Source: Ancylobacter moscoviensis (lineage in GTDB: Bacteria; Pseudomonadota; Alphaproteobacteria; Rhizobiales; Xanthobacteraceae). Taken from it: a DNA stretch of 64,000 nucleotides. Positions 13,313 through 38,085 of the stretch are shown here, piece after piece (within the stretch, counting starts at the first letter, position 1; each line of letters begins with the position of its first letter). The notes under the pieces are model-generated. The model was not told the DNA's origin. It was given only the letters and a program-made list of their open reading frames with translations, and made no database searches. The DNA is taken from positions 497,406 through 561,405 of the forward strand of contig NZ_VMBP01000001.1 in NCBI RefSeq assembly GCF_007559435.1, written 5' to 3'. Both the position numbers and the translations under genes were made by a program.

Positions 13313-15604
13313 TCATGGGGTCTCTCCTTCGGGATAGACCCAGACGAGCGGATTCTCGACGTCGAGGACCGCGCCGGTCTGAGCCGACTTGTAGTGGGTT
13401 GGAAGAACGGGGATGAAGGACGGCGTGATCTCCCCCGTGTCGGGATCGATCGTCTCACCGGCGGGGAAGTGCATGCCCTCGATCACGAGGTAGCCGAGCT
13501 TTGAGCGGGCATTGGGCAGGCCGTAGGGGCGGCCGTCGCGGGTGAACTTCACATAGCCCTTGGTGGTGAGAACGCTGACGCGCTCGCGGATCGTGGTCCG
13601 GCCGCCAAGCCCGGCCTGGTTTTCGAAGGCCTCGGCGAACTGCAAAGCGGTGTAGAGGTGCCCGGCTCGCGCCTGGTCGTCGAGGATTTGCAGGATCACG
13701 TCGCGCTTGCGCGCGCGCTCGGCATCGAGGCGTTCGCCGAGGTCCTTGCGCACGATCCGTTCGGATTTCGGATCGATGATGACCCAGCGCCCCTGACGCT
13801 TGTCGATCAGGATCGGATCGAGCGCGGGTCCGTTGCGCAGCTCGAACTCGAGGCGACGCTCGGGACGATCCTCGTCGGGCCGATGCATCAGAATGCCGGC
13901 GCTGTAGAAGCCTCTAAGCGCACTTGCGCCGGCGAGCGCCAGAAAGGGGTCTTCCGCGATCTGCCGCTTCTGCGCTTTTCGGGTGTGGTGGCTGAGAATG
14001 AGCCCCGCTTCCGGCGCGGCGGCATTGCGCAATGCTTCCACGCGCGCCTGCAGGAAGAACAACATGGCGTCGTTGTCGTTCTCGCCGCCGCCATCCGGTC
14101 CACCGTCGAACAGATTGCGGATCGGGTCGATGCACAGGATGTCGGGGCGCTCGCCATCGAAGGCGCCCAGCATCGCTGCCTCGACCAGCGCAAGACCGCG
14201 ACCGTCCAGAATGAGCCGCAGCTTCGGCGTCACGACGAGATTGTCGCGCGCAGTTGCGAGCACGGATTTCGGGAGGTTCAAGCCCTGCAAGCGCTCGCGC
14301 AAATAGTGGTAGTCGATCTCCGCCTGGAGATAGAAGACCCGCAGAGGACGCGGCGGTTTGAAGCAGAGAAAAGCCGACCCCGCCGCCATGTGGGTGAGAA
14401 GGCTGATCAGGAAGTCGCTCTTGCCCACCTTCGGCGCGCCGCCGAGCACCAGCATACCGCCCGGCGTGAGCACGCGCGGCGCGATGATGTCGGCTGGCAT
14501 GGGGCTCTGGTCATCGAGCAGCGCGCCGAGACTAAAGGCCGGAATGGCGGCGATCGGCGGAGCGGTGAGTGTGAGACCCGGCCCGTTGCGGGCCACATGC
14601 CTTCGCCACAGCCGGTCGAATTCGGCGCCGACGCGCTCGGCCGGCCAAGGCGGATCGAGGCATGCCTGATTGAACTGCTGGATCGCTTGGCGGGCCTCTT
14701 CCTCGGTTTCGCGTCCTTCATGGACGAGACGGACGTGGTGACCGATCACCATGCTCGCTGCTTCAAAGCGGGTGATGGGATCGATCCCGCCGGCGCGCGT
14801 GCGCCGCTTCAGGACGTCGTCGAGGGTGGCCTTTGGGTGGTGCGATGTCTCCGCCATCGGCGGCGTGATGCCCTGCAGCACTGGCATCATGTCCACGGAA
14901 TCCGCGAATTCCCGCAGGTCAACCTCGCTCGAAGAAATCTCGCGGATTGCGACAAGGCGCGTTGCCCCGCCTTTGAAATAGAGCGTGCCGGCGACACGGA
15001 TGGGCTGGTGGGCGGAACGGAAATGCGGATCGCCGCCGACCTTGTCGGCGATCATCCCGCGCAGCGCGCAGACGAGATCGATGTCCGCTCCTTCCGCCGG
15101 CTCGTTGAGCCGCCACCAGACATGGAGCTTCGGCGCGCCGGTCTCGGTGCGTCCGCCGCTCTCGACCACCATCACGGGCGGCGGCAGATACCGCCTGAAA
15201 TGTGCGAGCTTGACCTCGACATCGTCGGTATCGAGATCGGCGACGATCGTCTGGATCTGCTGGATGTCATCCGCTCTGGCCTGCCCCTGTTCGGCGACCG
15301 TGCCGGGCACGACATAGAGCGCCGCGCCCTCACGAGCGGCCCACACCGCCGTGGTGTGAACGTGCGCCGCAGCCCCAGAATCGACCGGAAGCCAGGACGT
15401 GTGCGGCCGGCCGGAGCTTCCCTTCTCGGGCAGGCCGCGGACCGGGATCAGCCCGTCGCAATAGCCAAAGACGCGGTCGATGAAGAGCGCGATCGTCTCG
15501 GCGTCCGGCGCGAGCATGGGATCGGCGGTCGGGGCTGCATCGTTGAAGTCCCGCCAGGCATCGATGCGCACGACGTTGCCGGTCGAGGCGTCGTCCCCGC
15601 TCAT
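13313..15604 (-). CDS. Phage primase-helicase (RepA-like AAA ATPase with N-terminal primase-like domain)
   Basis: A 763-aa protein whose ATG overlaps the upstream Cas4-like gene stop by ATGA. Residues about 90-220 look like an archaeo-eukaryotic primase/RepB-type domain (VADLDTDD 121-128, APKLHVWWRLNEP, SAHQPIRVAGTLYFKGG). The C-terminal half is a RecA-fold helicase with Walker A GGAPKVGKS (388-396) and Walker B-like PDILCIDPIRNLF (487-499), plus LILSHHTRK. A winged-helix-like tail follows. This is the usual replication initiator/helicase of these prophages. Domain boundaries are approximate; the ATPase is certain and the primase domain likely. Confidence 0.85.
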   Translation of the reverse strand: MSGDDASTGNVVRIDAWRDFNDAAPTADPMLAPDAETIALFIDRVFGYCDGLIPVRGLPEKGSSGRPHTSWLPVDSGAAAHVHTTAVWAAREGAALYVVPGTVAEQGQARADDIQQIQTIVADLDTDDVEVKLAHFRRYLPPPVMVVESGGRTETGAPKLHVWWRLNEPAEGADIDLVCALRGMIADKVGGDPHFRSAHQPIRVAGTLYFKGGATRLVAIREISSSEVDLREFADSVDMMPVLQGITPPMAETSHHPKATLDDVLKRRTRAGGIDPITRFEAASMVIGHHVRLVHEGRETEEEARQAIQQFNQACLDPPWPAERVGAEFDRLWRRHVARNGPGLTLTAPPIAAIPAFSLGALLDDQSPMPADIIAPRVLTPGGMLVLGGAPKVGKSDFLISLLTHMAAGSAFLCFKPPRPLRVFYLQAEIDYHYLRERLQGLNLPKSVLATARDNLVVTPKLRLILDGRGLALVEAAMLGAFDGERPDILCIDPIRNLFDGGPDGGGENDNDAMLFFLQARVEALRNAAAPEAGLILSHHTRKAQKRQIAEDPFLALAGASALRGFYSAGILMHRPDEDRPERRLEFELRNGPALDPILIDKRQGRWVIIDPKSERIVRKDLGERLDAERARKRDVILQILDDQARAGHLYTALQFAEAFENQAGLGGRTTIRERVSVLTTKGYVKFTRDGRPYGLPNARSKLGYLVIEGMHFPAGETIDPDTGEITPSFIPVLPTHYKSAQTGAVLDVENPLVWVYPEGETP

Positions 15605-25057: not shown

Positions 25058-25303
25058 ATGCGAAACGCTTTCGATCTTGGTCCCCTGGGGGCTGGCCCCA
25101 ACGCCCTGCGCCCCGACCTGATGAGCGATGCCGAGCGGCTTCAGGAGGCCGGTGAGATCCTCGCGCGCGGCGTGGTCCGGCTTCGGCGGCGATGCGAGGG
25201 ACGCCCCACACCTTTATCTCGCGAGCCCGGAGAGAGTTGGCTGGACTTGTCCGCCAGCCAACGCGGTCATGCCGAAGACGAAGTCGACGGAGACCGACAA
25301 TGA
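25058..25303 (+). CDS. Small protein upstream of DUF2924-recombinase module (81 aa)
   Basis: The translation starts MRNAFDLGPLGAGPNALRPD and contains LMSDAERLQEAGEILARGVV then RLRRRC, a pattern seen in small proteins preceding DUF2924 genes. The stop overlaps the DUF2924 start by ATGA. Function is unknown; it may be a regulator of the recombinase module. The roughly 170 bp before it hold AT-rich sequence that may be the module promoter. Confidence 0.65.
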   Translation: MRNAFDLGPLGAGPNALRPDLMSDAERLQEAGEILARGVVRLRRRCEGRPTPLSREPGESWLDLSASQRGHAEDEVDGDRQ

Positions 25304-25746
25304 ATGATCCCGTGCTGGCGCGAGTCGCCGCTATCAAAACCATGCCGACGCCCGCCCTGAAAGCGATGTGGCGCGATCTCTATGGAACGGAAGCGCCGCC
25401 CTACAATCGGCGCTTCCTTGAAAGCCGGTTGGCCTATCGCGTCCAGGAACTCGCCTATGGTGGGCTGAAGCCAGAAACCGTGAAGCGGCTCGACGCGCTC
25501 GCCCGCGGCGTCGAGGATATCAACCCGAAGACCCGCCGCATTCGCACCGATCGGAAGCCAATCGCAGGGACGCGGCTGCTGCGCGAATTCAACGGCGTCG
25601 AACACGTCGTGACGGTCACCCTCGAGGGGTACGAGTATCAGGGCAGGCCCTACAAATCACTCTCGGCGATCGCGCGCGCCATCACCGGCGTCAAATGGAA
25701 CGGCTGGGTCTTCTTCGGACTGAAAAGCCCGAGGAGCGGCGCATGA
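25300..25746 (+). CDS. DUF2924 domain protein
   Basis: A 148-aa protein, MNDPVLARVAAIKTMPTPAL then KAMWRDLYGTEAPPYNRRFL, with GTRLLREFNGVEHVVTVTLE and YEYQGRPYKSLSAIARAITG. These are diagnostic for DUF2924, which almost always precedes a serine recombinase in rhizobial phages and islands. The C-terminal part resembles DNA-binding or accessory folds used in site-specific recombination. It overlaps both neighbours by ATGA, so the three genes are translationally coupled. Confidence 0.88.
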   Translation: MNDPVLARVAAIKTMPTPALKAMWRDLYGTEAPPYNRRFLESRLAYRVQELAYGGLKPETVKRLDALARGVEDINPKTRRIRTDRKPIAGTRLLREFNGVEHVVTVTLEGYEYQGRPYKSLSAIARAITGVKWNGWVFFGLKSPRSGA

Positions 25747-27086
25747 CCCGTACAACGCCCGCCATCAAACATCCCGCGACAAAGGTCACGCCGAAAATCC
25801 GGTGCGCGATCTACACGCGCAAATCGTCGGAGGAAGGGCTCGACATGGAGTTCAACAGCCTCGACGCCCAGCGCGAGGCATGCGCCGCCTACATCATGAG
25901 CCAGAAGCCGGAGGGCTGGGTTCTGGTGCCCGATCACTATGATGACGGCGGGATCTCGGGTGGAACGCTGGAGCGCCCGGCGCTGAAGCGCCTCATCGCC
26001 GACATCGAATTCGGCAAGGTCGACGTCGTGGTCGTCTACAAGATCGACCGTCTGTCCCGCTCATTGATGGATTTCGCCAAGCTCGTCGAGGTGTTCGAGC
26101 GTCACAGCGTCACCTTCGTCAGCGTCACGCAGTCGTTCAACACGACAACGTCGATGGGGCGGCTGACACTCAACATCCTGCTCTCCTTTGCCCAGTTCGA
26201 GCGTGAGGTGATCGGCGAGCGCATCCGCGACAAGGTCGCGGCCTCGCGCAAGAAGGGCATGTGGATGGGCGGCTATGTGCCCCTCGGCTATCGGGTCGAG
26301 AACCGCAAGCTTGTGATCAGCGGGGAGGAGGCGGTCACCGTTCGCCGCATCTTCGAGGGCTTCGTGAAGCTCGGATCGATCAAGCTGCTCATGCGGGAAC
26401 TCGAGGAAGCCGATATCCGTAGCCGGCGTGGCAACCCGCTCGACAAGGGCGCGCTCTACAAGCTGCTGAACAATCGGGTCTATATCGGCGATGCGGTCCA
26501 CAAGGGTGTTGCCTATCCCGGCGAGCACGAGGCCATCATCGACATCGCTCTCTGGAACCGCGCTCACGGCATTATGGGCGAAAGCCCGCGCACACGCGCC
26601 AATAAAACTCGTCTGTCCGGGCCGGCGCTTCTGCGCGGCCTGATCTTCTCCCCAAATGGGGACGCCATGTCGCCGAGTCACACCCGAAAAGGGGATCGGC
26701 TCTACCGTTACTACGTCACCCAGTCTGTGTTGAAGCGCGGGCCGGAAACCTGCCCGGTCCGGCGTGTTCCTGCCGCCGAGATCGAGGCGACGGTGGTCGA
26801 GCAGCTTCGTGGAATTCTGCGCGCGCCGGAACTGATCGTCCGGACATGGATGACAGCAACGGTACATGACGACCGCATCACAGAATCGGAGGTGCGCGAG
26901 GCCTTCGAGCGGCTCGATCCCGTATGGGACGAGCTGTTCCCTGCCGAGCAGGCGCGTCTCGTCCAGCTTTTGATCGAGCGGGTCGATATAAAACTCGACG
27001 GCATTGCAATCCAGCTCCGCATCGGAGGTCTCACTGCACTGCTCGCCGAGCTTCAATCGATCACCGGACGGCAGGAGGCAGCCTGA
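25743..27086 (+). CDS. Large serine recombinase (site-specific integrase)
   Basis: A 447-aa protein. The resolvase domain opens with RCAIYTRKSSEEG (S28 is the likely nucleophile), followed by SLDAQREAC, VYKIDRLSRSLMDFAKLVEV and LTLNILLSFAQFEREVIGER. A recombinase domain (AASRKKGMWMGGYVPLGYRV) and a zinc-ribbon-like region (GLIFSPNGDAMSPSHTRKG) follow. It would integrate or excise the element at short att sites. It overlaps the DUF2924 and 144-aa genes. No tyrosine integrase is present, so this is the best candidate for mobility of the prophage and perhaps of the defence operon beside it. Confidence 0.92.
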   Translation: MTRTTPAIKHPATKVTPKIRCAIYTRKSSEEGLDMEFNSLDAQREACAAYIMSQKPEGWVLVPDHYDDGGISGGTLERPALKRLIADIEFGKVDVVVVYKIDRLSRSLMDFAKLVEVFERHSVTFVSVTQSFNTTTSMGRLTLNILLSFAQFEREVIGERIRDKVAASRKKGMWMGGYVPLGYRVENRKLVISGEEAVTVRRIFEGFVKLGSIKLLMRELEEADIRSRRGNPLDKGALYKLLNNRVYIGDAVHKGVAYPGEHEAIIDIALWNRAHGIMGESPRTRANKTRLSGPALLRGLIFSPNGDAMSPSHTRKGDRLYRYYVTQSVLKRGPETCPVRRVPAAEIEATVVEQLRGILRAPELIVRTWMTATVHDDRITESEVREAFERLDPVWDELFPAEQARLVQLLIERVDIKLDGIAIQLRIGGLTALLAELQSITGRQEAA

Positions 27087-27520
27087 TGGCGAAAGGCACG
27101 ATCCTTCACGACACGGACACGCTTACCGTCACCGTGCCGATGACCTTCAAGAAGCGTGGTGGGCGAAAGCTCGTCATCGCTCCAAACGGCGCCGATGCCT
27201 GGGCGCCGCCGCGGGCACGCATCGACAATACGATGGTGAAGGCGCTCGCTCGCGCCCATCGATGGAAGAAGCTGCTTGACACCGGCGACTATCCGACTGT
27301 CCAGGACCTCGCCGGGGCCGAGAAGATCAACCCGTCCTATATCGCCCGCATCCTGCGTCTGACCCTGCTCGCTCCCGACATCGTCGAGGCCATCCTCAAC
27401 GGGCGGCAGCCGGCGGGGCTTCAGTTGGACGACCTGCTCGCGCCGTTCCCAGTGGAGTGGGAGAGGCAGAAAGAGCGTTTCATGCGCCTCGACACCCACA
27501 AAGGTCGTGGAGGACGCTAG
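27086..27520 (+). CDS. Recombinase-associated protein with HTH-like motif (144 aa)
   Basis: The translation starts MAKGTILHDTDTLTVTVPMT and contains YPTVQDLAGAEKINPSYIAR then ILRLTLLAPDIVEAILNGRQ, a helix-turn-helix-like pattern also seen in ParB- and resolvase-associated proteins. Its ATG overlaps the recombinase stop by one base. It is a regular third member of the DUF2924-recombinase cassette in rhizobia, probably a directionality or DNA-binding accessory factor. Role inferred from context. Confidence 0.8.
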   Translation: MAKGTILHDTDTLTVTVPMTFKKRGGRKLVIAPNGADAWAPPRARIDNTMVKALARAHRWKKLLDTGDYPTVQDLAGAEKINPSYIARILRLTLLAPDIVEAILNGRQPAGLQLDDLLAPFPVEWERQKERFMRLDTHKGRGGR

Positions 27521-27575: not shown

Positions 27576-27833
27576 ATGCCCGATGAAATTCTGACATTGC
27601 CGGAAGTGGCTGTCCTGCTGAAGGTCGCGGAGAAGACCGTCTACACGATGGCTCAACGCGCCGAAATTCCGGCGTTCAAGGTGAGAGGGCAGTGGAGGTT
27701 CAAGCGGGTGGATCTCGATAGCTGGATCGAGGCGCAGAAGGCCTCACTAAATCCAGCAACGGCTCAGAATGAGACGCCGCCTTCCGATGCGGCGGCGACG
27801 GAGCGTGGTGGCGGGAGGCAGGATGATCACTGA
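27576..27833 (+). CDS. Excisionase/MerR-type HTH protein heading defence operon
   Basis: An 85-aa protein, MPDEILTLPEVAVLLKVAEK then TVYTMAQRAEIPAFKVRGQW, an HTH_17 domain, ending in a disordered Ser/Ala/Glu tail. The stop overlaps the SNF2 helicase gene by 11 bp. Small HTH_17 proteins commonly head restriction or BREX-like operons, probably as regulators. It starts 55 bp after the recombinase module, with TTGACC (27557-27562) as a possible -35 box. Confidence 0.85.
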   Translation: MPDEILTLPEVAVLLKVAEKTVYTMAQRAEIPAFKVRGQWRFKRVDLDSWIEAQKASLNPATAQNETPPSDAAATERGGGRQDDH

Positions 27834-30684
27834 CTTCCACGCAAAGTATATTGCCCACGAACTCACTAAACGATGTGCTCCTGATAGTTCCGAGCGTTTG
27901 GCGGGCGCGGTCGCTGGCGCCCAGGTCGATTTGAATCCGCATCAGGTTGATGCGGCTCTGTTTGCCTTCGCGTCGCCCCTTTCAAAGGGTGCGCTGCTTG
28001 CCGATGAAGTCGGCCTTGGAAAGACGATCGAAGCCGGGCTTGTCATCTCCCAACGATGGGCGGAGCGGAAGCGCCGTATTCTGGTGATCGCGCCATCGAA
28101 TTTGCGCAAGCAATGGCATCAGGAGTTGAACGAAAAGTTCCTGCTTCCTTGTATTATACTGGAATCGAAATCCTACAACCAATCCATCCGCGAGGGGAGC
28201 TTCCAGCCATTCGACGTCAAGGATGCGATCGTAATTTGCTCATATCAGTTCGCTCGGTCGAAAGCATCGGACGTCCATAGGGTCCCCTGGGACTTGGTCG
28301 TCATCGACGAGGCTCACAGACTTAGAAATGTGTACAAGCCATCGAATGTGATTGCGAATACACTAAAAAATGCACTCGCCCAGAAAAATAAACTGCTCCT
28401 GACCGCAACTCCGCTCCAGAACTCACTCTTGGAGCTGTATGGCCTCGTCAGTTTCATTGATGAGCACGCTTTCGGCGATGTCAAAAGTTTCCGCGAGCAA
28501 TTCGCAAACCCGGGTGACAAACGCAATTTCGAGGCGCTGAAGGAGCGTCTGAAGCCCATTTGCCACCGCACCCTTAGGCGCCAGGTAACCGCATACATCC
28601 CCTACACACGCCGTCTTCCCCTGGTCGAGGAATTCACACCGGCCGACGGTGAGGACCGCCTCTATCAGCTCGTCTCCGACTATCTGCAGCGTGACAATCT
28701 GCAGGCCTTGCCGTCCGGGCAACGCTCGCTGATGACGCTCGTTTTGCGGAAGCTCCTGGCATCCTCGACATTTGCGATCGCCGGCGCCTTGAACTCGATT
28801 TCGCAACGGCTGAAGGCGAAGTTGGACGCTCATCCGGTTGCGACACCTTTGGAGGATGAGCTTTCCGAGGATTTCGAGGCTCTCGAAACGACAGCGGAGG
28901 AATGGCCCGAGGATGCGGATGACGAACCGCTGACCGATGCCGACCGGAAAGCCATCGAAGCGGAAATTGCTGATCTCGAATCCTTCGCCAAATTGGCGAC
29001 TTCGATCGAGCACAACGCCAAAGGCAAGGCTCTGTTGAAGGCGCTGGATGTGGCGTTTGCAAAGGCGCGCGAACTCGGTGGCGCCGAGAAGGCAATCATC
29101 TTCACCGAGTCGCGGAAAACACAGGAATACCTTCAGCGGGTTCTCGCCAGCAGCCCCTATGCGGGCGGCATCGTCTTGTTCAACGGCACGAACACCGATC
29201 CCCTATCCCGCGAAATCTATGCGCGCTGGGTCGAGAAGCATGCCGGATCGGACCGGGTCACGGGGTCGAGAACCGCAGACATGAGGTCTGCGCTGGTCGA
29301 CTATTTCCGCGACGAGGGCCAGATCATGATCGCGACGGAGGCCGGCGCCGAGGGCATCAACCTCCAATTCTGCTCGCTCGTCGTGAACTACGACCTGCCG
29401 TGGAATCCACAGCGCGTGGAGCAGCGCATCGGCCGCTGCCATCGCTACGGCCAGAAGCACGACGTGGTCGTCGTCAACTTCATCAATCGGAAAAACGAGG
29501 CGGATCAGCGCGTCTATCAACTCCTGTCCGAGAAATTTCGTCTCTTCGAAGGGGTGTTCGGCGCCAGCGACGAGGTCTTGGGCGCGATAGAGTCCGGCGT
29601 CGATTTCGAGAAGAGAATTGCCGGCATCTACCAGGAGTGCCGTCAACCCGAACAAATCCGGGCGGCCTTCGACCAGTTGCAATTGGAGCTAAGCCTCGAA
29701 ATCGATGAGGCGATGAGCCAGACGCGGCAGAAGCTTCTCGAAAAATTCGATGATGAGGTCCGGGAGAAACTCCGGATTCGAGACGAGGACGCGAAGGTTC
29801 ATCTCGATCGTCATGAGCAGTGGTTGATGCGTCTGACGCGCCACGAACTCGACGGGCTGGCGGTGTTTCACAACAGTTCGTCGTTTACCTTGCCCACACG
29901 GCCTCAATGGGCGAATGGCACCGCCATTCCGCTCGGGCTTTATGAGCTGCCGCGACGGTCCGGCGAGGCGCACACCTATCGGCTCAATCACCCCCTCGGT
30001 GAAGCCGTTGTCGCGCGCGCGAAGGAACGCCCGCTCACCCCGGCAGAGGTGCATTTCGACTACGCCAATCATTCTGGCAAGATCAGCATTCTGGAGCCGC
30101 TCATTGGCAAGGCCGGCTGGCTGGTCGCCTCGCTGATGACGGCCGAAGCTCTCGACGAGGCGGAGGACCACATCCTCCTGGCAGGGATCATGGACGAAGG
30201 GGAGCTGCTGACCCGCGAAGTTTGCGATCGACTCCTGACGATTCATGGCGCGTGTGGACGGGAGGTCACCCCCGATCCCGGCGCCATGACGCGTCTCGAA
30301 AAGTCCTTGAGCGAAAGCCAAGCGCTGGTCCGGAGGGCCGTATCGGAGCGAAACGCACGGTTCTTCGAAGCCGAAGCCGATAAGCTCGATGGCTGGGCGG
30401 ACGACCTGAAGGTTGGGCTGGAGCGCGAGATCAAGGAAATCGACAGGCTCATCAAGGAAGCTCGCCGCGCTGCCACAACCGCGTTGACCCTCGAAGAAAA
30501 GCTCGCGGGGCAGAAACAGATCAAAACACTCGAAGCGACGCGCAATCAGAAGCGCCGAACGCTCTTCGACGCGCAAGACCAGATCGACCGGCAGCGGGCA
30601 GAACTGATCGCCCAGATCGAATCCAAGCTCGAACAGAAGGTCGAGGTCTCGCCCCTTTTCACCATCCGTTGGACATTGGGTTGA
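27823..30684 (+). CDS. SNF2-family helicase of defence operon
   Basis: A 953-aa protein from the ATG at 27823 (MITDFHAKYIAHELTKRC), preceded by GGGAGGCAGG. Motif I/Ia is GALLADEVGLGKTIE (56-70), motif II IDEAHRLRN (161-169), motif III LLLTATPLQN (191-200) and motif VI RVEQRIGRCHRYGQ (531-544). The C-terminal third is charged and coiled-coil-rich (about 850-940). The overall type resembles the SNF2-like helicases of DISARM and related defence systems, but no DrmA, DrmB or DrmC is nearby. It probably translocates on or scans invading DNA for the modification genes downstream. Confidence 0.92.
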   Translation: MITDFHAKYIAHELTKRCAPDSSERLAGAVAGAQVDLNPHQVDAALFAFASPLSKGALLADEVGLGKTIEAGLVISQRWAERKRRILVIAPSNLRKQWHQELNEKFLLPCIILESKSYNQSIREGSFQPFDVKDAIVICSYQFARSKASDVHRVPWDLVVIDEAHRLRNVYKPSNVIANTLKNALAQKNKLLLTATPLQNSLLELYGLVSFIDEHAFGDVKSFREQFANPGDKRNFEALKERLKPICHRTLRRQVTAYIPYTRRLPLVEEFTPADGEDRLYQLVSDYLQRDNLQALPSGQRSLMTLVLRKLLASSTFAIAGALNSISQRLKAKLDAHPVATPLEDELSEDFEALETTAEEWPEDADDEPLTDADRKAIEAEIADLESFAKLATSIEHNAKGKALLKALDVAFAKARELGGAEKAIIFTESRKTQEYLQRVLASSPYAGGIVLFNGTNTDPLSREIYARWVEKHAGSDRVTGSRTADMRSALVDYFRDEGQIMIATEAGAEGINLQFCSLVVNYDLPWNPQRVEQRIGRCHRYGQKHDVVVVNFINRKNEADQRVYQLLSEKFRLFEGVFGASDEVLGAIESGVDFEKRIAGIYQECRQPEQIRAAFDQLQLELSLEIDEAMSQTRQKLLEKFDDEVREKLRIRDEDAKVHLDRHEQWLMRLTRHELDGLAVFHNSSSFTLPTRPQWANGTAIPLGLYELPRRSGEAHTYRLNHPLGEAVVARAKERPLTPAEVHFDYANHSGKISILEPLIGKAGWLVASLMTAEALDEAEDHILLAGIMDEGELLTREVCDRLLTIHGACGREVTPDPGAMTRLEKSLSESQALVRRAVSERNARFFEAEADKLDGWADDLKVGLEREIKEIDRLIKEARRAATTALTLEEKLAGQKQIKTLEATRNQKRRTLFDAQDQIDRQRAELIAQIESKLEQKVEVSPLFTIRWTLG

Positions 30685-30687
30685 GCC

Positions 30688-32502
30688 ATGCCCAGCGCCG
30701 CGGAGAAAATCGCTCACATCGAAGCTGCGCTCCGGCGCCGGTTCTTCCCGTTGGTGCCAGAGCGCGCCCAGCGTTGGACAGCGGAGCAACACGATGTTGA
30801 TCGTTGCTCGCGTTCGCTAGCTGCCTATTCGCTCTGCGGGGCATGCGGGATATCTGATGCCGTTGCCGCAGGTGCACTGGTCGACGGAGGAGATGATGGC
30901 GGTATAGACGCTCTCCATTTCGATCGGGCAGGCCAGCGGCTGCTTGTGGTTCAATCCAAGTACAAACGGCCGAACAACGCCGAGAACCCTCAAGGCACAG
31001 GGCCCAATCAGGCGGAGACGCTCAAATTCATCAATGGCACGAAAGCGCTCATCGAACGGCGCTTCGACGGGTTCAATGCTGCACTCAGGAATCGGCTGGA
31101 CGAGATCGAGGAAGCGCTGGACACGCCGGGCGTGAAGATCTGCCTTGTTCTTCCATTCCTTGGCGAAGCGCTGGACGTCCATGCGAAGGCGGACCTCGAC
31201 GCCTTCGTCACCCAGTGCAACAGCCTTTCGGACTGCATGAGTGCCACCGTTGTCGGCATCACGCAGACCTATGACTGGATGGTTGCAGAGCAGGCAAACC
31301 AAGCCGTTGACGTCCGTCTTACGTTGGAAAAATGGTCGAGCGTGTCCGCGCCGCGTAAAGCGGTCTATGGACTGGTGAAGGGCCAGGACCTTGCGGCTCT
31401 TGTCACCGAGCATGGAACCGCGCTTTTTGAGCGCAACATCCGGCACTATCTTGGTTCGGTCGGCGTGAATGTCGCGATCGAGGAAACCGTGCGGCGTCGG
31501 CCGGAGGAGTTCTTCTACCTGAACAACGGCATCACGGCTGTCACGTCTGCCATAACGCAGGCGCCGGGCTCACCTGATCGCTGTGTGTTCGGGTTGACAG
31601 CTTTCTCCATCGTCAATGGCGCCCAGACCGCTGGCTCCATCACGACGGCGTCGCTCGCAGCAGCAATCTCTGAAAACGCGAAGCTACACATCACGATCAT
31701 CGAGGTTCCGGATCCGGCTGATGATTTCGCCGTGCGCGTGACGCGAGCACGAAACTACCAAAATCAAGTGCGGGGGGTCGACTTCGCAGCACTCGATCCC
31801 AATCAGGAGCGTATTCGGCAGGAACTCGCTGCCGTCGGCATTCGCTACCACTATCGGCCGTCTGCAGAATCTCGGATCAGGCAGGACGATGCATTCACGC
31901 TTGAAGAGGCGGCGCTCGCGCTGGCCTGCCTCGCGTTCGTCGTTACGGACGGGCAGCGAAGGGGCCACAGGGGGGCGAACGCGGTCGACCTCGTCGTCAT
32001 CGCTAAGCGCGAGATCGGGCGCCTTTGGGAGCAGGAAGGCGCGATCTACTCCCAGCTCTTCCCGGCATCGATATCCGGCGTGCGGATTTGCCGGCTCGTT
32101 CGCATTTATCAGTTCATCGACCGCATTCTGGCCGGGAGTGAACGGGCGGAGACGGCTTACGACCGCCGGATGTTCTTCCGCCACGGCCGCTACTTCATCA
32201 TGGCGTTCGTCGCCCATCGCCTGCCGAGGCTCGTCGGCAAGGCTGCGCCCGTTCTCACCGCCGAGGAGGAAAGCGAGATATCGCAGGAGATCAATCACCT
32301 CTCGGAGGTGATTTTCGCGACCTCGAAGGCCATGCAGGTCGATCGCGGCTTTCTGGCCATCTTCCGAAATCTCACCGATGCGCTGCCGCTCGCAGAGAAG
32401 GTCCTCCTTCGTCTGGCCGAGCTGGATGCCGCTCAAAATACACCGGCACCTGCCAGCGCGGCCGCGCCGGCGATCGCCGCAGCCGTAACGGACCAACCAT
32501 GA
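30688..32502 (+). CDS. AIPR-family (abortive infection phage resistance) protein
   Basis: A 604-aa protein with the AIPR signature FERNIRHYLG (247-256), FFYLNNGIT (275-283) and FSIVNGAQT (306-314). The N-terminus has GGDDGGIDAL (67-76) and VVQSKYK (87-93), a D...QxK arrangement typical of a PD-(D/E)XK nuclease-like fold. The C-terminal 60 residues are Ala/Pro-rich. AIPR proteins are linked to abortive infection and to restriction systems, with mechanism unsettled. It starts 3 bp after the helicase stop and its own stop overlaps the methyltransferase start by 4 bp. Confidence 0.9.
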   Translation: MPSAAEKIAHIEAALRRRFFPLVPERAQRWTAEQHDVDRCSRSLAAYSLCGACGISDAVAAGALVDGGDDGGIDALHFDRAGQRLLVVQSKYKRPNNAENPQGTGPNQAETLKFINGTKALIERRFDGFNAALRNRLDEIEEALDTPGVKICLVLPFLGEALDVHAKADLDAFVTQCNSLSDCMSATVVGITQTYDWMVAEQANQAVDVRLTLEKWSSVSAPRKAVYGLVKGQDLAALVTEHGTALFERNIRHYLGSVGVNVAIEETVRRRPEEFFYLNNGITAVTSAITQAPGSPDRCVFGLTAFSIVNGAQTAGSITTASLAAAISENAKLHITIIEVPDPADDFAVRVTRARNYQNQVRGVDFAALDPNQERIRQELAAVGIRYHYRPSAESRIRQDDAFTLEEAALALACLAFVVTDGQRRGHRGANAVDLVVIAKREIGRLWEQEGAIYSQLFPASISGVRICRLVRIYQFIDRILAGSERAETAYDRRMFFRHGRYFIMAFVAHRLPRLVGKAAPVLTAEEESEISQEINHLSEVIFATSKAMQVDRGFLAIFRNLTDALPLAEKVLLRLAELDAAQNTPAPASAAAPAIAAAVTDQP

Positions 32503-34172
32503 CGAAAAAAAAGCAAAAACTCGAACTCACCTGGGTAGGCAAGGAGAACCGACCGCGGCTGGAGCCGCGCATTCTCCTGGAGGATCCGGAAAAATCCTAT
32601 CACGCCAAGCATCGCGTGAGCGACGAGGACATTTTCGACAATCGTCTGATCTTTGGCGACAACCTGCTCGCGCTGAAGGCGCTGGAGCAGGAGTTCGCCG
32701 GAATGGTGAAATGCGTCTTCATCGATCCGCCCTACAACACCGGAAGTGCCTTTGAGCACTATAATGACGGGGTAGAGCACTCGATCTGGCTTGAATTGAT
32801 GCGTGACCGTTTGGAGATCATTCGGCGTTTGCTGGCCGATGACGGCTCGCTTTGGATCACTATAGACGACAACGAAGCTCACTACCTCAAAGTAGTCCTT
32901 GACGAAATATTCGGAAGAAATTCATTCATCGCGAACATCGTTTGGCAGAAACGAACCTCAAGAGAGAATAGAGCCGCGATTGGCTCCGCTCACGATCATA
33001 TTCTTGTGTATTCTCCTCAAGGTCCTCAGAGGTGGAAGGATACGCGCAACCGTCTGGGCGATGAAGGAGGATACACTAATACTGACAACGACCCAAATGG
33101 GCCTTGGCGCTCTATTCCGTTTAGCGCTCAAGGTTATCGCGCCAATCAAATGTATGACATCGTGACGCCCTCCGGCGTTGTTGTTCAGCCGCCTACAGGA
33201 CGGTGTTGGGGAGCGACGGAGCCTGTTTTCCTTCGATATCTATCGGAAGGGCGAGTTTATTTTCCGAATAATGGTTCAGGCAGACCACGCATCAAACAAT
33301 ACAAAGGGGAAGAGGTAGGTTTAGCGCCATGGACATGGTGGGATGCTGCGCTTGCAGGGGATAATCAAGCGGCAAAGAAGGAAATCTTATCCTTATTCGG
33401 CGCAGATATATTCGACACGCCCAAGCCAGAGAAGCTCCTCCACGTCATTCTACACATCGCCACCAATCCCGGTGACCTGGTCCTCGACTCCTTCGCTGGC
33501 TCCGGCACCACCGGCGCGGTCGCCCACAAGATGGGACGTCGCTGGATCATGGTGGAGCTGGGCGAGCACGCCCACACCCACATCATCCCGCGCCTGACGA
33601 AGGTCATCGACGGCGAGGACAAGGGTGGCGTGACCGAAGTGACCGGCTGGCAGGGCGGCGGCGGTTTCCGTTATTTCAAGCTCGCGCCGTCCCTCCTGGA
33701 GGTGGACAAGTGGGGACGCGAGGTCATCAGCAAGGCCTATAATGCCGAAATGCTGGCGGAGGCGCTGTGCAAAATCGAGGGCTTCAACTACGCGCCGAGC
33801 GACACCGTCTATTGGCAGCAGGGCACTTCCACCGAGCGCGACTTCATCTATGTCACGACCCAGACGCTCTCTCCGGAGCAGCTTGATGCCTTGAGCGAAG
33901 AGGTAGGGCCGGACCGCACGCTGCTCGTGCTCTGCTCAGCCTTCCGCGGCAATGCGTCAGCTTGGCCCAATCTGACGGTCAAGAAGATTCCGAACCACAT
34001 TCGCGAGCGCTGCGAATGGGGGCATGACGACTACAGTCTCAATGTCGAGAACCTGCCCAAGGTGCCGCAGGCTGAAAGAATTTCGCCTACCGCGCCGAAG
34101 GCTGCCGACAAGGCATCGCCTCGTTCCGCCTCCCAGCCGGGCCTGTTCGATCTCGCGGGAGACGACCAATGA
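32499..34172 (+). CDS. Type III-like DNA adenine methyltransferase (Mod)
   Basis: A 557-aa enzyme. Motif IV is DPPYNTG (76-82), followed after the target-recognition domain by motif I DSFAGSGTTG (330-339), the order of beta-class type III Mod proteins. The DPPY form indicates N6-adenine methylation. Residues about 128-305, the recognition domain, are encoded by clearly AT-richer DNA than the rest: 24 of 60 bases are G or C at 32881-32940, versus 40 of 60 at 33541-33600. Start and stop both overlap neighbours by ATGA. It should protect host DNA and set specificity for the Res-like partner. Confidence 0.92.
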   Translation: MTKKKQKLELTWVGKENRPRLEPRILLEDPEKSYHAKHRVSDEDIFDNRLIFGDNLLALKALEQEFAGMVKCVFIDPPYNTGSAFEHYNDGVEHSIWLELMRDRLEIIRRLLADDGSLWITIDDNEAHYLKVVLDEIFGRNSFIANIVWQKRTSRENRAAIGSAHDHILVYSPQGPQRWKDTRNRLGDEGGYTNTDNDPNGPWRSIPFSAQGYRANQMYDIVTPSGVVVQPPTGRCWGATEPVFLRYLSEGRVYFPNNGSGRPRIKQYKGEEVGLAPWTWWDAALAGDNQAAKKEILSLFGADIFDTPKPEKLLHVILHIATNPGDLVLDSFAGSGTTGAVAHKMGRRWIMVELGEHAHTHIIPRLTKVIDGEDKGGVTEVTGWQGGGGFRYFKLAPSLLEVDKWGREVISKAYNAEMLAEALCKIEGFNYAPSDTVYWQQGTSTERDFIYVTTQTLSPEQLDALSEEVGPDRTLLVLCSAFRGNASAWPNLTVKKIPNHIRERCEWGHDDYSLNVENLPKVPQAERISPTAPKAADKASPRSASQPGLFDLAGDDQ

Positions 34173-36838
34173 ACCGTCACGTCAACGCCATCGCCGGCCG
34201 TCTCAGCCTTCGCGCTCCGCAGCGGCAATCGCTCGAAATCCTCGACCGCGTCACCGAACTCGTGCCGCCGCGCAAGGGCGCCGATCTCGAAGAGGCGCTT
34301 GCGGCGATCCGAACCGAATTCCCGAGCGTCACGGATTTCGAGCGCGACTTCCCGAGCCTGTGTTTCGCGCTCGCGACCGGCGTCGGCAAGACCCGGCTCA
34401 TGGGCGCTTTCATCGCCTATCTGCACCTCGCGCACGGCCTCAACAATTTCTTCGTGCTCGCGCCGAACCTGACGATCTACAACAAGCTGATCACCGACTT
34501 CACACCCAACACGCCGAAATATGTGCTGAAAGGCATCGCAGAGTTCGCGATCTCGCCGCCGGTCATCACCACCGGCGACAATTTCGAGCGGCAGATCGCC
34601 AGCGGCGGCAATCTGTTTCCGGTCACCATCAACATCTTCAACATCTCCAAGATCAATTCCGAAGTGCGCGGCGGCCGAAGCCCGCGCATCCGCAGCTTCA
34701 GGGAGGAGATCGGGGATAGCTATTTCGACTACCTCGCGGCGCAGAAGGACCTCGTCCTAATCATGGACGAATCCCATCGCTATCGTGCGACCGCCGGTGT
34801 CCGCGCCATCAACGAGCTGAAACCGGTGGTGGGATTGGAGCTGACGGCCACGCCGTTCGTCGAGACGACGCGCGGCCCGGTGCCCTTCCAGAACGTGATC
34901 TTCGACTATCCGCTTGGCCGCGCCATGGCCGACGGCTTCGTCAAGGAGCCGGCCGTCGTCACCCGCGAGAATTTCGTCTCCGCGGGCAAATCGCCGGAGC
35001 AGTTGCAGCAGATCAAGCTGGAGGACGGCGTTCGCCTGCATGAAAGCGTCAAGGTCGAACTGGAGACCTATGCGCGCCAGGTCGGCGAGCGAATCGTCAA
35101 GCCCTTCATGCTCGTGATCGCCCGCGATACCACGCATGCCGGGGAGCTGATGGCGCTGATCAAATCCAACGCCTTCTTCGAGGGGCGCTATGCGGACAAG
35201 GTCATCCAGGTCGATTCCAGCGTGAAGGAAGAGGAGACGGTCGAGAAGCTCTTGAAGGTCGAGAGCCCCGACGAGCCGACCGAGATCGTCATTCACGTCA
35301 ATATGCTGAAAGAGGGCTGGGACGTCACCAATCTCTACACCATCGTGCCGTTGCGCGCCGCCAACGCACGCACACTCATCGAGCAGTCGATCGGGCGCGG
35401 CTTGCGGCTTCCCTATGGCCGACGGACGGGTGTCACCGCCGTCGACCGGCTGAACATCGTGGCCCACGATCGCTTCCAGGAGATCGTCGATGAGGCACGT
35501 AAGCCGGACTCGGCGATTCGTCTGCAACAGGTCATCCTCACCGGGGGGCAGTTGCAGCAGAAGACCGTCACGGTCGAATCGCGGCCCCAGCTCGCCGCCA
35601 AGCTCGGTCTGCCTTCGGACGCGCCTGCCAATGGGACTTCCGGCTTCGAGGAAGCGCCGGCCGTGTTTACGCCGGAAGAGCAGCAGGTCGCCCGCATCGC
35701 CTATGATGTGATCCGGAAGCTGGAGACCGAGCCCTCGCGCTTACCCAGCGTCGCGCATCTGCAAAAGCCGGAGGTGCAGGCCGCCGTTCTACGGGAGGTC
35801 CAAAGCCAGTATCGCCCAGCCCAGTTGGAGTTGGACGGAATTGCCAAGCAGCCTGATCTCACGGCCATTGTCGCCAGGACGGTCGAGCTGGTTGTTCAGC
35901 AGACGATCGACATCCCCCGCATTCTTGTCATCCCGAAAGGCGAGGTGAAGTCCGGCTTCCGACCCTTCACGCTCGATCTGTCGGGAATGCGCTACGAGGT
36001 CCCCAACGAAACGCTGTGGGCCGCACACTTGCGAACGGGGCAAGTCGATCGGATCGGCCTTGGGGCGGGGAACATCGATGAGCAGCGATTGGAAGATTAT
36101 GTCGTCAGCGGCCTCATCGACTTTGATGACGTGGCCTACGACGAGCATGCCGACCTGCTTTACGACCTTGCGGCCCAGGTGACGGACCACCTCCTGGCGA
36201 CGCACCCGGAAGACGGCGTTCGGAAGATTCTGAGGCTGCATCAGAAGGAGATTGCTCGCTTTGTGCATGCACAGATGCAGAGCCACTTCTGGCAGGACAC
36301 TAAGGTCGAGTACGACGTCGTCGTCACGCGCGGCTTCACCGAGTTGCGGAAAAGCGCCTACACCGCGAATGCCGGCGAAGCGCCGCTCGATTTCCGTCAA
36401 TCACCGGCAGACAAGGCCAACATGGCGCGATATTTGTTCGGCGGTTTCCAGAAATGCTTGTATCCAAATCAGAAATTTCAGTCGGATGCGGAGCGCAAGC
36501 TCGCGGTTATTCTCGATCGAGAAGCGCAGAAATGGTTCAAGCCGGCACGCGGGCAGTTCCAGCTCTTCTATCGAAGCGGCGCCGATCTCCAAGAGTATCA
36601 GCCGGATTTCGTAGCCGAGACGGCGGACAGCATTTTGATGCTCGAACCCAAGGCCTCTAACCAGATGAACGATCCAGAGGTCTTGGCCAAACGCGATGCG
36701 GCTCTTGAGTGGTGCCGACACGCGACCGGCCATGCGTCAAGTTACGGCGGCAAGCCCTGGCGCTACGCTCTCATCCCCCACGACGCGATCGCCGAGAACA
36801 TGACGCTCGTCGGCCTTCTTCAGCAATTTGAGAGGTGA
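34169..36838 (+). CDS. Res-like helicase-endonuclease (type III restriction subunit family)
   Basis: An 889-aa protein. Walker A is ATGVGKTR (69-76), motif II MDESHR (199-204) and motif III ELTATPF (224-230); IEQSIGRGLRLPYG lies near 405. Near the C-terminus, PDF (D813) and EPK (826-828) form a PD-(D/E)XK nuclease signature. This is the layout of type III Res subunits, which translocate from a recognition site and cut. It overlaps the Mod gene by 4 bp. Length is close to that of EcoP-type Res proteins. It probably forms the restriction complex with the Mod protein. Confidence 0.9.
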   Translation: MNRHVNAIAGRLSLRAPQRQSLEILDRVTELVPPRKGADLEEALAAIRTEFPSVTDFERDFPSLCFALATGVGKTRLMGAFIAYLHLAHGLNNFFVLAPNLTIYNKLITDFTPNTPKYVLKGIAEFAISPPVITTGDNFERQIASGGNLFPVTINIFNISKINSEVRGGRSPRIRSFREEIGDSYFDYLAAQKDLVLIMDESHRYRATAGVRAINELKPVVGLELTATPFVETTRGPVPFQNVIFDYPLGRAMADGFVKEPAVVTRENFVSAGKSPEQLQQIKLEDGVRLHESVKVELETYARQVGERIVKPFMLVIARDTTHAGELMALIKSNAFFEGRYADKVIQVDSSVKEEETVEKLLKVESPDEPTEIVIHVNMLKEGWDVTNLYTIVPLRAANARTLIEQSIGRGLRLPYGRRTGVTAVDRLNIVAHDRFQEIVDEARKPDSAIRLQQVILTGGQLQQKTVTVESRPQLAAKLGLPSDAPANGTSGFEEAPAVFTPEEQQVARIAYDVIRKLETEPSRLPSVAHLQKPEVQAAVLREVQSQYRPAQLELDGIAKQPDLTAIVARTVELVVQQTIDIPRILVIPKGEVKSGFRPFTLDLSGMRYEVPNETLWAAHLRTGQVDRIGLGAGNIDEQRLEDYVVSGLIDFDDVAYDEHADLLYDLAAQVTDHLLATHPEDGVRKILRLHQKEIARFVHAQMQSHFWQDTKVEYDVVVTRGFTELRKSAYTANAGEAPLDFRQSPADKANMARYLFGGFQKCLYPNQKFQSDAERKLAVILDREAQKWFKPARGQFQLFYRSGADLQEYQPDFVAETADSILMLEPKASNQMNDPEVLAKRDAALEWCRHATGHASSYGGKPWRYALIPHDAIAENMTLVGLLQQFER

Positions 36839-36839
36839 G

Positions 36840-37754
36840 ATGAGCATCCCTGACTATCAGTCTCTGATGCTTCCGGTGCTGCAAGTCGCATCGAAGGGAG
36901 AGACATCGGTGCCGCTGGCGGAGGCCGATATCGCCGCGATGTTCGCTCTCTCCCAGGAAGAGCGCGAGCAGATGCTCCCGAGCGGAAAACAGCGCGTCCT
37001 TCACAACCGCATCCATTGGGCAAAATTCTACCTGACGAAGGCCGGGTATCTGGAATCGCCCAAACGCGGCCGATTTGTCATCACTCCGGCCGGAACGGCT
37101 CTGCTGGCCAACCCGCCCGCAAAGCTCGACACTCAATACCTCCTGTCCGTTCCAGCATTCCGGGAATTCTACCGTGCCAATCAGCCGGATGAGGCTGCCG
37201 GGACGGTAGCGCAGAATGCCGCTCCTGCAGCAACCCCAGAGGAAGTGATCGAGGCAGCGTTCAATGCCACGCAATCAGCGCTTCGGGCGGAACTTCTGGA
37301 GCGCATCTTGCAGAATGGCCCGGGCTTTTTCGAGGGCTTGATTGTCGATCTGTTGGTTGCAATGGGCTACGGAGGCTCTCATCGAAACGCTGCCGCCCAG
37401 CTCGGACGAACTGGTGACGGTGGCGTCGATGGCGTCATCAATGAGGACGTTCTGGGCCTGGATCGCGTTTATGTGCAGGCCAAACGCTATGGTCCCGGTT
37501 CATCCGTTGGTCGACCGGACGTCCAGGCGTTTACCGGTAGCCTCGTAGGGCTTGGTGCAACGAAAGGCGTGTTCGTCACCACTTCGACATTCTCGCCGCA
37601 GGCAGTCGAATTTGCCGCCCGGATTCCGCAACGTGTGATCCTGATCGACGGAAAGAGGCTCACCGAACTCATGATCGAGCATGGCGTCGGCGTCCGGCCG
37701 AGTCGCATATTGGAGTTCAATCGTATCGACGAGGATTTTTTTGTCGAGGAATGA
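36840..37754 (+). CDS. Mrr-like restriction endonuclease
   Basis: A 304-aa protein from the ATG at 36840 (MSIPDYQSLMLPVLQVASKG), one base after the Res-like stop. The N-terminal domain (1-100) is the Mrr winged helix, with RIHWAKFYLTKAGYLESPKR. The C-terminal Mrr catalytic domain shows E165, DGGVDG (193-198) and QAKRY (213-217), the D...QxK form of PD-(D/E)XK. Mrr proteins cut methylated DNA. In this operon it may target foreign-methylated phage DNA, or use the operon's own methylation as a signal under stress. It is the last gene before the tRNA-Ser border. Confidence 0.9.
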   Translation: MSIPDYQSLMLPVLQVASKGETSVPLAEADIAAMFALSQEEREQMLPSGKQRVLHNRIHWAKFYLTKAGYLESPKRGRFVITPAGTALLANPPAKLDTQYLLSVPAFREFYRANQPDEAAGTVAQNAAPAATPEEVIEAAFNATQSALRAELLERILQNGPGFFEGLIVDLLVAMGYGGSHRNAAAQLGRTGDGGVDGVINEDVLGLDRVYVQAKRYGPGSSVGRPDVQAFTGSLVGLGATKGVFVTTSTFSPQAVEFAARIPQRVILIDGKRLTELMIEHGVGVRPSRILEFNRIDEDFFVEE

Positions 37755-37995
37755 CCGGCATTGTTCGCATGAACGAATAAGGTATCAGGGCGACTGAAAT
37801 TTGTGCCTTTTCAAGGCTTTGAGCCTCGTATCCCAGCGCCAGAAGTCCACAGGTGCGGAGAAAAACCGGTCGTATGGAGAACGCAGTCCTCCGACGTGCC
37901 GCCAGGCAGTGCATAGGTGCAACACTCAAGGTCTTGGAACTGTTTGAGAAATTCCGCCCAATCTCGTCACTGAGAGACACTTCGTCTGGCGGTAA

Positions 37996-38085
<90 letters not shown>

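Follow-up and report, generated by a model that had tools for sequence, protein, structure and literature searches.

We analysed a window of 64,000 nucleotides from Ancylobacter moscoviensis (NCBI RefSeq assembly GCF_007559435.1, contig NZ_VMBP01000001.1, positions 497,406 to 561,405 of the forward strand). Between a serine integrase gene and a tRNA-Ser gene, the window carries six tightly packed genes, all on the plus strand. They encode a small helix-turn-helix (HTH) protein, a SNF2-family motor, an AIPR protein, the methyltransferase Mod, the helicase-nuclease Res and an Mrr-type nuclease (Table 1). A first-pass annotation of the bare sequence had proposed one co-directional operon; open reading frames (ORFs) and Pfam matches confirmed its coordinates, overlaps and gene families, including the SNF2, AIPR and Mrr assignments. 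Comparison with other genomes suggests that SNF2-[slot]-Mod-Res, with a variable slot between the SNF2 gene and mod, is a widespread, little-described restriction arrangement, and that this operon is one version of it.

Table 1. Genes of the operon, the adjoining integrase module and the tRNA gene, in window coordinates.
Feature	Position	Strand	Evidence
HTH_17 small regulator, MAD1 family; accessory	27576..27833	+	Pfam HTH_17 60 bits; NF047737 MAD1 81 bits
SNF2, RapA/DrmD-like motor; core gene	27823..30684	+	Pfam SNF2-rel_dom 134.6 bits; motifs; AlphaFold model
AIPR, N-terminal PD-(D/E)xK-like motif; slot gene	30688..32502	+	Pfam AIPR 120.1 bits (cut-off 25)
Mod, beta-class DNA methyltransferase and specificity subunit	32499..34172	+	Pfam N6_N4_Mtase 153.9 bits; PADLOC MTase_III PDLC03636 673.1 bits
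Res, superfamily 2 (SF2) helicase with C-terminal PD-(D/E)xK nuclease	34169..36838	+	Pfam ResIII 72.3 bits; PADLOC REase_III PDLC03648 662.5 bits
Mrr-type (type IV) nuclease; accessory	36828..37754	+	Pfam Mrr_cat 115.9 bits, Mrr_N 94.8 bits; PADLOC mREase_IV PDLC03657 331.1 bits
DUF2924 protein, integrase module	25192..25746	+	Pfam DUF2924 170.5 bits; phrog_11806 (function unassigned in PHROG)
Large serine recombinase (integrase)	25695..27086	+	Pfam Resolvase, Recombinase, Zn_ribbon_recom; phrog_95 integrase 362.8 bits
Small recombinase-associated protein	27062..27520	+	phrog_14161 'recombinase' 155.8 bits; mechanical ORF starts in frame at 26924
tRNA-Ser(cga), 3' end = right edge of inserted DNA	37996..38085	-	ARAGORN

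A 3-bp gap separates SNF2 from AIPR, and the AIPR/Mod and Mod/Res junctions each overlap by 4 bp. The SNF2 start was set at 27823 by the family alignment, giving an 11-bp overlap with the HTH gene; the longest ORF begins at 27769. Mrr starts either at a TTG at 36828 (11-bp overlap with Res) or at an ATG at 36840 (1-bp gap). The interval between the integrase and the tRNA has no space left for another large gene on the plus strand. Promoter and terminator patterns showed no excess over shuffled sequence.

Judged by their sequences, the enzymes have intact catalytic motifs. We called a motif conserved when it was kept in at least 95% of the aligned rows (29 SNF2, 17 AIPR, 28 Mod and 29 Res sequences), with short rows and, for Mod, distant families excluded. 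SNF2 has conserved GLGKT, DEAH and QRIGR motifs. Mod of the window carries CVFIDPPYNTG and LDSFAGSGTT, of which DPP and FxGSGT are conserved. Res carries TGVGKT, DESH and PDF..EPK (PD813..ExK828), with GVGKT, DExH, PDF and ExK conserved. These motifs, together with the PADLOC matches to MTase_III and REase_III, bear out the type III-like Mod/Res pair of the first-pass annotation. The three nuclease motifs that it had proposed were also located: besides that of Res, they are D74..QxK91 in AIPR and DGGVDG..VQAK (D..QxK) in Mrr. In AIPR, residues D66, D70, G72, D74, Q89 and K91 are all conserved, and invariant in 13 sequences.

The AlphaFold model of SNF2 (mean predicted local distance difference test score, pLDDT, 77.6) has RapA as its top match; the alignment runs along its length, through about 1,040 columns (E 5.7e-25). 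Its C-terminus consists of four strands, two long helices and a last strand. The same arrangement is reported for RapA and for BrxHII of type 3 BREX in the accessible part of PMC12839542, and the C-terminal fold of BrxHII, in which two long helices come ahead of the final strand, matches the secondary structure predicted here. In the AIPR model (mean pLDDT 80.6; predicted template-modelling score 0.44), a helix-strand-strand-helix-strand arrangement surrounds the motif, by eye as in PD-(D/E)xK folds. The model found no significant fold match in the PDB (best E 0.072), and a profile search found no solved structure. Three matches in a library of viral structures passed 0.001, one of them named AIPR; below this set stood ParB-like, GmrSD and DNA-sulfur-modification proteins. 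PMC3506569, in the portion available, places a HEPN domain at the N-terminus of AIPR/AbiU1 proteins, in contrast to the PD-(D/E)xK-like motif here; a HEPN domain was supported by neither motif nor predicted topology and was rejected.

By sequence comparison, the middle, target-recognition region of Mod has been exchanged, and most of the remainder and Res have not. We compared the window with two relatives (L001 and L039; loci are cited by such handles where needed). Residues 81-320 of Mod are only 30-70% identical to either, and most other blocks are 85-97% identical. The last 37 residues share 45% identity with L001 and 64% with L039. The neighbouring proteins are 94% (SNF2), 93% (AIPR) and 93% (Res) identical to those of L001, and 77%, 89% and 88% identical to those of L039.

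As far as gene order can tell, the core that recurs consists of SNF2, Mod and Res. A peptide-pattern scan seeded with AIPR, which detects close relatives only, found 11 loci in 84,980 species genomes. The order SNF2-AIPR-Mod-Res was present in nine of them (L001-L009, from Proteobacteria, Planctomycetes and Bacteroidetes); L002-L005 and L008 contain inserts, and L009 carries two AIPR genes. In L010 the contig ends near AIPR. A Deinococcus plasmid (L102) also keeps this order, with small genes between AIPR and Mod. Genes found mostly apart would have spoken against the first-pass annotation, and this is not what we saw for SNF2, Mod, Res and this AIPR subfamily.

A search independent of AIPR covered 398 phylum genomes. 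Res matched at 1e-30 in 24 and SNF2 at 1e-100 in 20; both were present in 14, against 1.2 expected (hypergeometric P 3e-15). This count refers to the same genome rather than to adjacency, and the genomes are related and include that of the window; P is uncorrected for relatedness. The 24 genomes with Res comprise the window's own, 22 that were examined and one (G194, a 103-residue piece with a stop) that was left out. We took a locus as assessable if SNF2 was visible or at least 3.5 kb was visible upstream of Mod, and sorted the loci by hand. Pooled over three sets, 28 of the 32 assessable Res-seeded loci have SNF2 upstream of Mod: 10 of 12 in the phylum sample, 11 of 13 in IMG/VR (20 loci found) and all seven plasmid representatives (25 records). 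The plasmids belong to Deinococcus, Salmonella, Roseomonas, Sphingopyxis, Aeromonas, Ketogulonicigenium and Paracoccus, represented by one of 15 records for Salmonella and one of two each for Roseomonas and Aeromonas; partial hits in Gordonia and Thioclava were left out.

Seeding with SNF2 gave the reciprocal result. Of 20 places found besides that in the window, 17 were assessable, and in 16 of them the gene is followed by a type III-like Mod. Two further type III Mod/Res families are preceded by SNF2 as well: PDLC03646/PDLC03654 in L056 and PDLC03634/PDLC03647 in L063. SNF2 is thus paired with several Mod/Res families and therefore tracks Mod/Res, not a given cargo. L064, L066 and L067 resemble L056 and L063 by look, without a PADLOC scan. 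The 4-bp Mod/Res overlap is kept in 16 of 52 junctions, and the 4-bp AIPR/Mod overlap in 10 of 18. Across 14 loci, the distance correlations are 0.953 for SNF2-AIPR, 0.955 for AIPR-Res and 0.923 for SNF2-Res; those with Mod are 0.61-0.67. A Res query of 50,697 phage records found no match at E 1e-20. Scanning viral_contigs with SNF2 gave a single locus (L101), with no Mod or Res on the available piece.

Related operons, compared by sequence, carry different genes between SNF2 and Mod. Of 43 SNF2-Mod loci, the window included, 16 have AIPR in the slot, 13 leave it empty and 14 fill it with other genes. The AIPR seed biases ten of those 16 (the window and nine others); leaving these ten aside, AIPR occupies 6 of 33. 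Occupants were assigned with Pfam for a part only, the remainder from annotation or by eye. Pfam identifies SIR2 (L046), Schlafen AlbA_2 (L059), Abi_2 (L103), an NgoFVII/PLD-like protein (L104), a PHP-AAA protein with PHP below its cut-off (L098), and RhuM beside AIPR (L049). The L058 occupant resembles the Schlafen protein of L059 by length and sequence, and AAA ATPases occupy L106 (by annotation) and L061 (by eye). Slot proteins of 258-527 amino acids in L090, L094, L105, L091 (one of two ORFs scanned) and L087 (one of four) have no Pfam match at E 0.01; they are candidate new effectors. There is a second slot between Mod and Res, occupied by YhcG in L002 and by Fic in L043 (Pfam). After Res stand Mrr in the window, a GmrSD-type protein in L004 and an AAA protein of the PADLOC candidate family PDC-S06 in L055. 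Mrr and GmrSD are families that attack modified DNA.

L085 is 82% identical to the window in SNF2 and 80% in the available part of Res, and its AIPR is only 33% identical; the slot gene is therefore far more divergent than the genes flanking it. L009 has both kinds of AIPR in tandem. In a quick tree of the 43 SNF2 proteins, most AIPR loci group in a single clade; its 15 rows comprise 13 AIPR, one SIR2 and one AAA, and ten of them are AIPR-seeded or the window. A second clade of six rows contains AIPR in L049, L051 and L052; L103, beside L052, has Abi_2 instead. This distribution argues that AIPR has been inherited with the core over the long term and replaced at times. Parsimony on the tree gives 16 changes of cargo with 15 states (minimum 14), and 12 with three states (AIPR, none, other), which is weak evidence for swapping. 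The L103 locus, on a Salmonella conjugative plasmid, reads HTH-SNF2-Abi_2-Mod-Res; an IS256 transposase gene separates SNF2 from Abi_2. Resistance genes are annotated nearby, and the same Res match occurs in 15 Salmonella records, of which one was opened.

Among the closest known systems is type III restriction-modification, as in EcoP15I (Mod2Res1), whose further traits are one-strand methylation and cleavage that depends on two inverted sites. Shared with it are adjacent mod and res genes, a beta-class methyltransferase with DPPY and FxGxG motifs and a variable central recognition region, and a Res with an SF2 helicase and a C-terminal PD-(D/E)xK nuclease. The relatives in the PDB by sequence are EcoP15I Res (29.6 bits) and Mod, and another Mod (6k0w). 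Unlike EcoP15I, the operon has a SNF2 motor gene and a variable slot before mod, and its Res is distant from EcoP15I Res. The term 'SNF2' was not found in the main text, as available, of a 2025 review of restriction-modification (PMC12707154).

SNF2 also points to other systems. Its best curated match is DrmD of class 1 DISARM, at 691.7 bits against a cut-off of 950 (NF038318) and 253.8 against 610 (NF038317). The DrmB (DUF1998) and DrmC (PLD) families are absent from the six proteins in Pfam and NCBIfam, and the only DrmA match among the PADLOC matches listed is the SNF2 helicase itself (one model, 129 bits). DISARM membership was rejected, since the DrmD cut-off is not reached and no DrmB or DrmC family was found in Pfam or NCBIfam. 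The first-pass annotation was right to set DISARM aside, though it missed the likeness to DrmD. The combination of a SNF2 helicase with an adenine methyltransferase recalls type 3 BREX (BrxHII) and the BREX-related DUF499/Hma systems, which pair these two enzymes according to the available part of PMC12839542. SNF2 gives weak PADLOC matches to the BrxH helicase (236 bits) and the HmaA helicase (178 bits). Unlike those systems, the operon has a type III Res as its third enzyme, and no PglZ, BrxC or DUF499 ATPase family was found in the six proteins (Pfam, NCBIfam). BREX/Hma membership was rejected on these grounds, in agreement with the first-pass annotation as regards BREX.

AIPR beside restriction operons is already known: in the portions available, Makarova 2012 (PMC3506569) notes it with restriction-modification, type III included, and Iyer 2008 (PMC2292703) calls it common in such operons. 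SNF2-[slot]-Mod-Res is apparently undescribed; we found no description of it in the accessible parts of the open PMC literature, which covers few subscription papers or preprints. The nearest mentions, in the text available, are a figure legend of PMC11090510 that lists SWI2/SNF2 and Mod/Res among superoperon abbreviations, and a SNF2/RAD54 helicase upstream of type IIG genes in Prevotella (PMC5608340).

On balance, we think it probable that the operon, which sits on a serine-integrase element, encodes restriction-modification of a type III-like kind, equipped with a RapA/DrmD-like SNF2 motor of its own and with a cargo slot. Restriction by Mod and Res is the safest inference. Family knowledge and gene logic suggest the following steps. 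Mod would mark one strand of host sites, and Res, activated at unmarked sites, would slide and cut incoming DNA. The SNF2 motor probably serves Mod and Res by stripping DNA-bound proteins or a stalled polymerase from the path of Res. Alternatively, it may help Res to work at sites that usually defeat type III enzymes, giving a wider cleavable range. AIPR would be a second nuclease effector, restrained while restriction works and released when restriction is inhibited or overwhelmed. The analogy is PrrC, which is restrained by EcoprrI and released on inhibition. The other slot genes, like AIPR, are probably second-line effectors. Mrr may cut phage DNA with foreign methylation invisible to Mod and Res, and the HTH protein may control the operon. 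More tentatively, SNF2-[cargo]-Mod-Res could possibly be a restriction class of its own, in which the RapA-like motor, as a regular third subunit, couples restriction to a plug-in effector (AIPR, SIR2, Schlafen, AAA, Abi_2 or another) that is released when restriction is blocked.

If this is true, many proteins annotated as 'SNF2-related protein' and some as 'AIPR family protein' would belong to a single modular restriction system, and new defence effectors could be sought in the slot between SNF2 and Mod. For DrmD-like motors, whose role in DISARM calls for study according to the available text of PMC9142583, it would offer a function that can be tested. The recurrence of SNF2-Mod-Res with a swappable gene suggests a way in which bacteria stack several phage defences in one unit.

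Several observations weigh against this picture of a motor-assisted restriction system with loose cargo. SNF2 is not strictly required: L011 has AIPR-Mod-Res without it, and in L042 and L043 (phylum sample) and L095 and L097 (IMG/VR) it is missing upstream of Mod-Res. The SNF2 fragment of L070 has no Mod after it; a gene that looks Bro-N-like (by eye) stands there instead. Contig ends and fragments left 10 of 22 phylum and 7 of 20 IMG/VR Res-seeded loci unassessable. The RapA match has modest template-modelling scores (0.33-0.49), with a root-mean-square deviation of 14-19 Å over the full length. As no solved structure matched AIPR significantly, its nuclease domain is predicted from the motif and the secondary structure. 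Of the 15 rows in its main clade, 13 retain AIPR, which brings it closer there to a fixed part than to loose cargo. As a family, AIPR is not bound to this arrangement: homologues occur in 53 plasmid records, all at less than 60% identity; in L109 (Paracoccus sp. MC1862), the one plasmid record opened for AIPR alone, no SNF2, Mod or Res is annotated nearby. The lone AIPR gene of L109 adjoins a recombinase gene and a VapBC pair.

It is also conceivable that SNF2 and AIPR are a separate sensor-nuclease pair, like Hachiman HamB-HamA, placed before an ordinary type III system, with SNF2 restraining AIPR and freeing it on damaged or phage DNA. The two genes lie within about 120 bp of each other in 14 of the 16 AIPR loci, their distance correlation is 0.953, and the accessible part of PMC12278908 describes a helicase-nuclease pair of like logic for HamAB. 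However, SNF2 and Mod occur without AIPR in 27 of the 43 loci, 13 with an empty slot. SNF2 pairs with other Mod/Res families as well, and no assessable SNF2-AIPR without Mod-Res was seen. We consider such a pair unlikely. Fortuitous stacking in a defence island, with an ordinary type III system and neighbours that share no mechanism, would fit the highly variable slot and flanks, which include toxins and insertion sequences; defence genes are known to cluster (PMC3506569, available portion). It appears decidedly unlikely, given that SNF2 precedes Mod in 28 of 32 assessable Res-seeded loci, with genes often overlapping or nearly touching, and that SNF2 divergence tracks Res (0.923).

One integrated system of six genes, in which every protein is needed, HTH and Mrr included, was rejected as very improbable: the genes are co-directional and overlapping and the three nuclease motifs are intact, but HTH and Mrr are rare among the fetched stretches. 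HTH homologues occur in five other loci (L001, L052, L085, L103 and, weakly, L083), one of the five at 26% identity. Within those stretches an intact Mrr was found in the window only; elsewhere there is a 35-amino-acid remnant in L001. L002, L004-L007, L009 and L039 have the core and visible DNA beyond res, with no Mrr match there. The first-pass annotation had favoured a single system of six genes. The recurring order SNF2-AIPR-Mod-Res bears out a unit of these four; HTH is occasional, an intact Mrr was found in this operon only, and AIPR is one of many slot occupants. The remnant in L001 (Bosea sp. 117, 14367-14471, after res) matches Mrr residues 2-36, and Mrr, a type IV gene, seems to have been lost there. 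The HTH protein passes the MAD1 model NF047737 (81 bits, cut-off 80), as do those of L052, L085 and L103. The other five proteins match no MADS model in NCBIfam; MADS membership was rejected because the remaining MAD proteins are not matched there. The NCBI MAD1 equivalog model may mislabel HTH genes before SNF2-Mod-Res operons as MADS.

The proposed restriction system and its slot lie on inserted DNA. The tRNA-Ser loci of five relatives align with the window only from 37994-37996 (the tRNA 3' end) onward, and the G+C content of the operon in 2-kb windows is 0.575-0.625, compared with 0.68-0.72 just to the right (38-43 kb); the DNA was therefore inserted at tRNA-Ser. The left edge could not be placed, because no exact repeat of the tRNA region of at least 15 nucleotides was found in the 60 kb upstream or the rest of the window. 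Recombinase homologues adjoin the operon in L085 (71% identity), L039 (60%) and L083 (44%). The module of DUF2924, recombinase and small recombinase-associated gene thus recurs with the operon, ahead of it in L085 and L083 and behind it in L039. The tRNA-Ser site may be a hotspot for serine-recombinase elements. In a relative (L075; tRNA-Ser at 9386-9548), the same tRNA gene is adjoined by a distant serine recombinase (24%).

To the left of the integrase module, tailed-prophage genes occupy the minus strand over window positions 1-21000 and further upstream. Within the window they encode large and small terminase subunits, a primase/helicase and a helicase; a tape measure gene lies about 6-9 kb before the window. 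A second recombinase-like ORF was seen by eye about 21-22 kb before the window. Inside the prophage, at 7280-9887, two adjacent genes resemble ParB-methyltransferase fusions, again by eye only.

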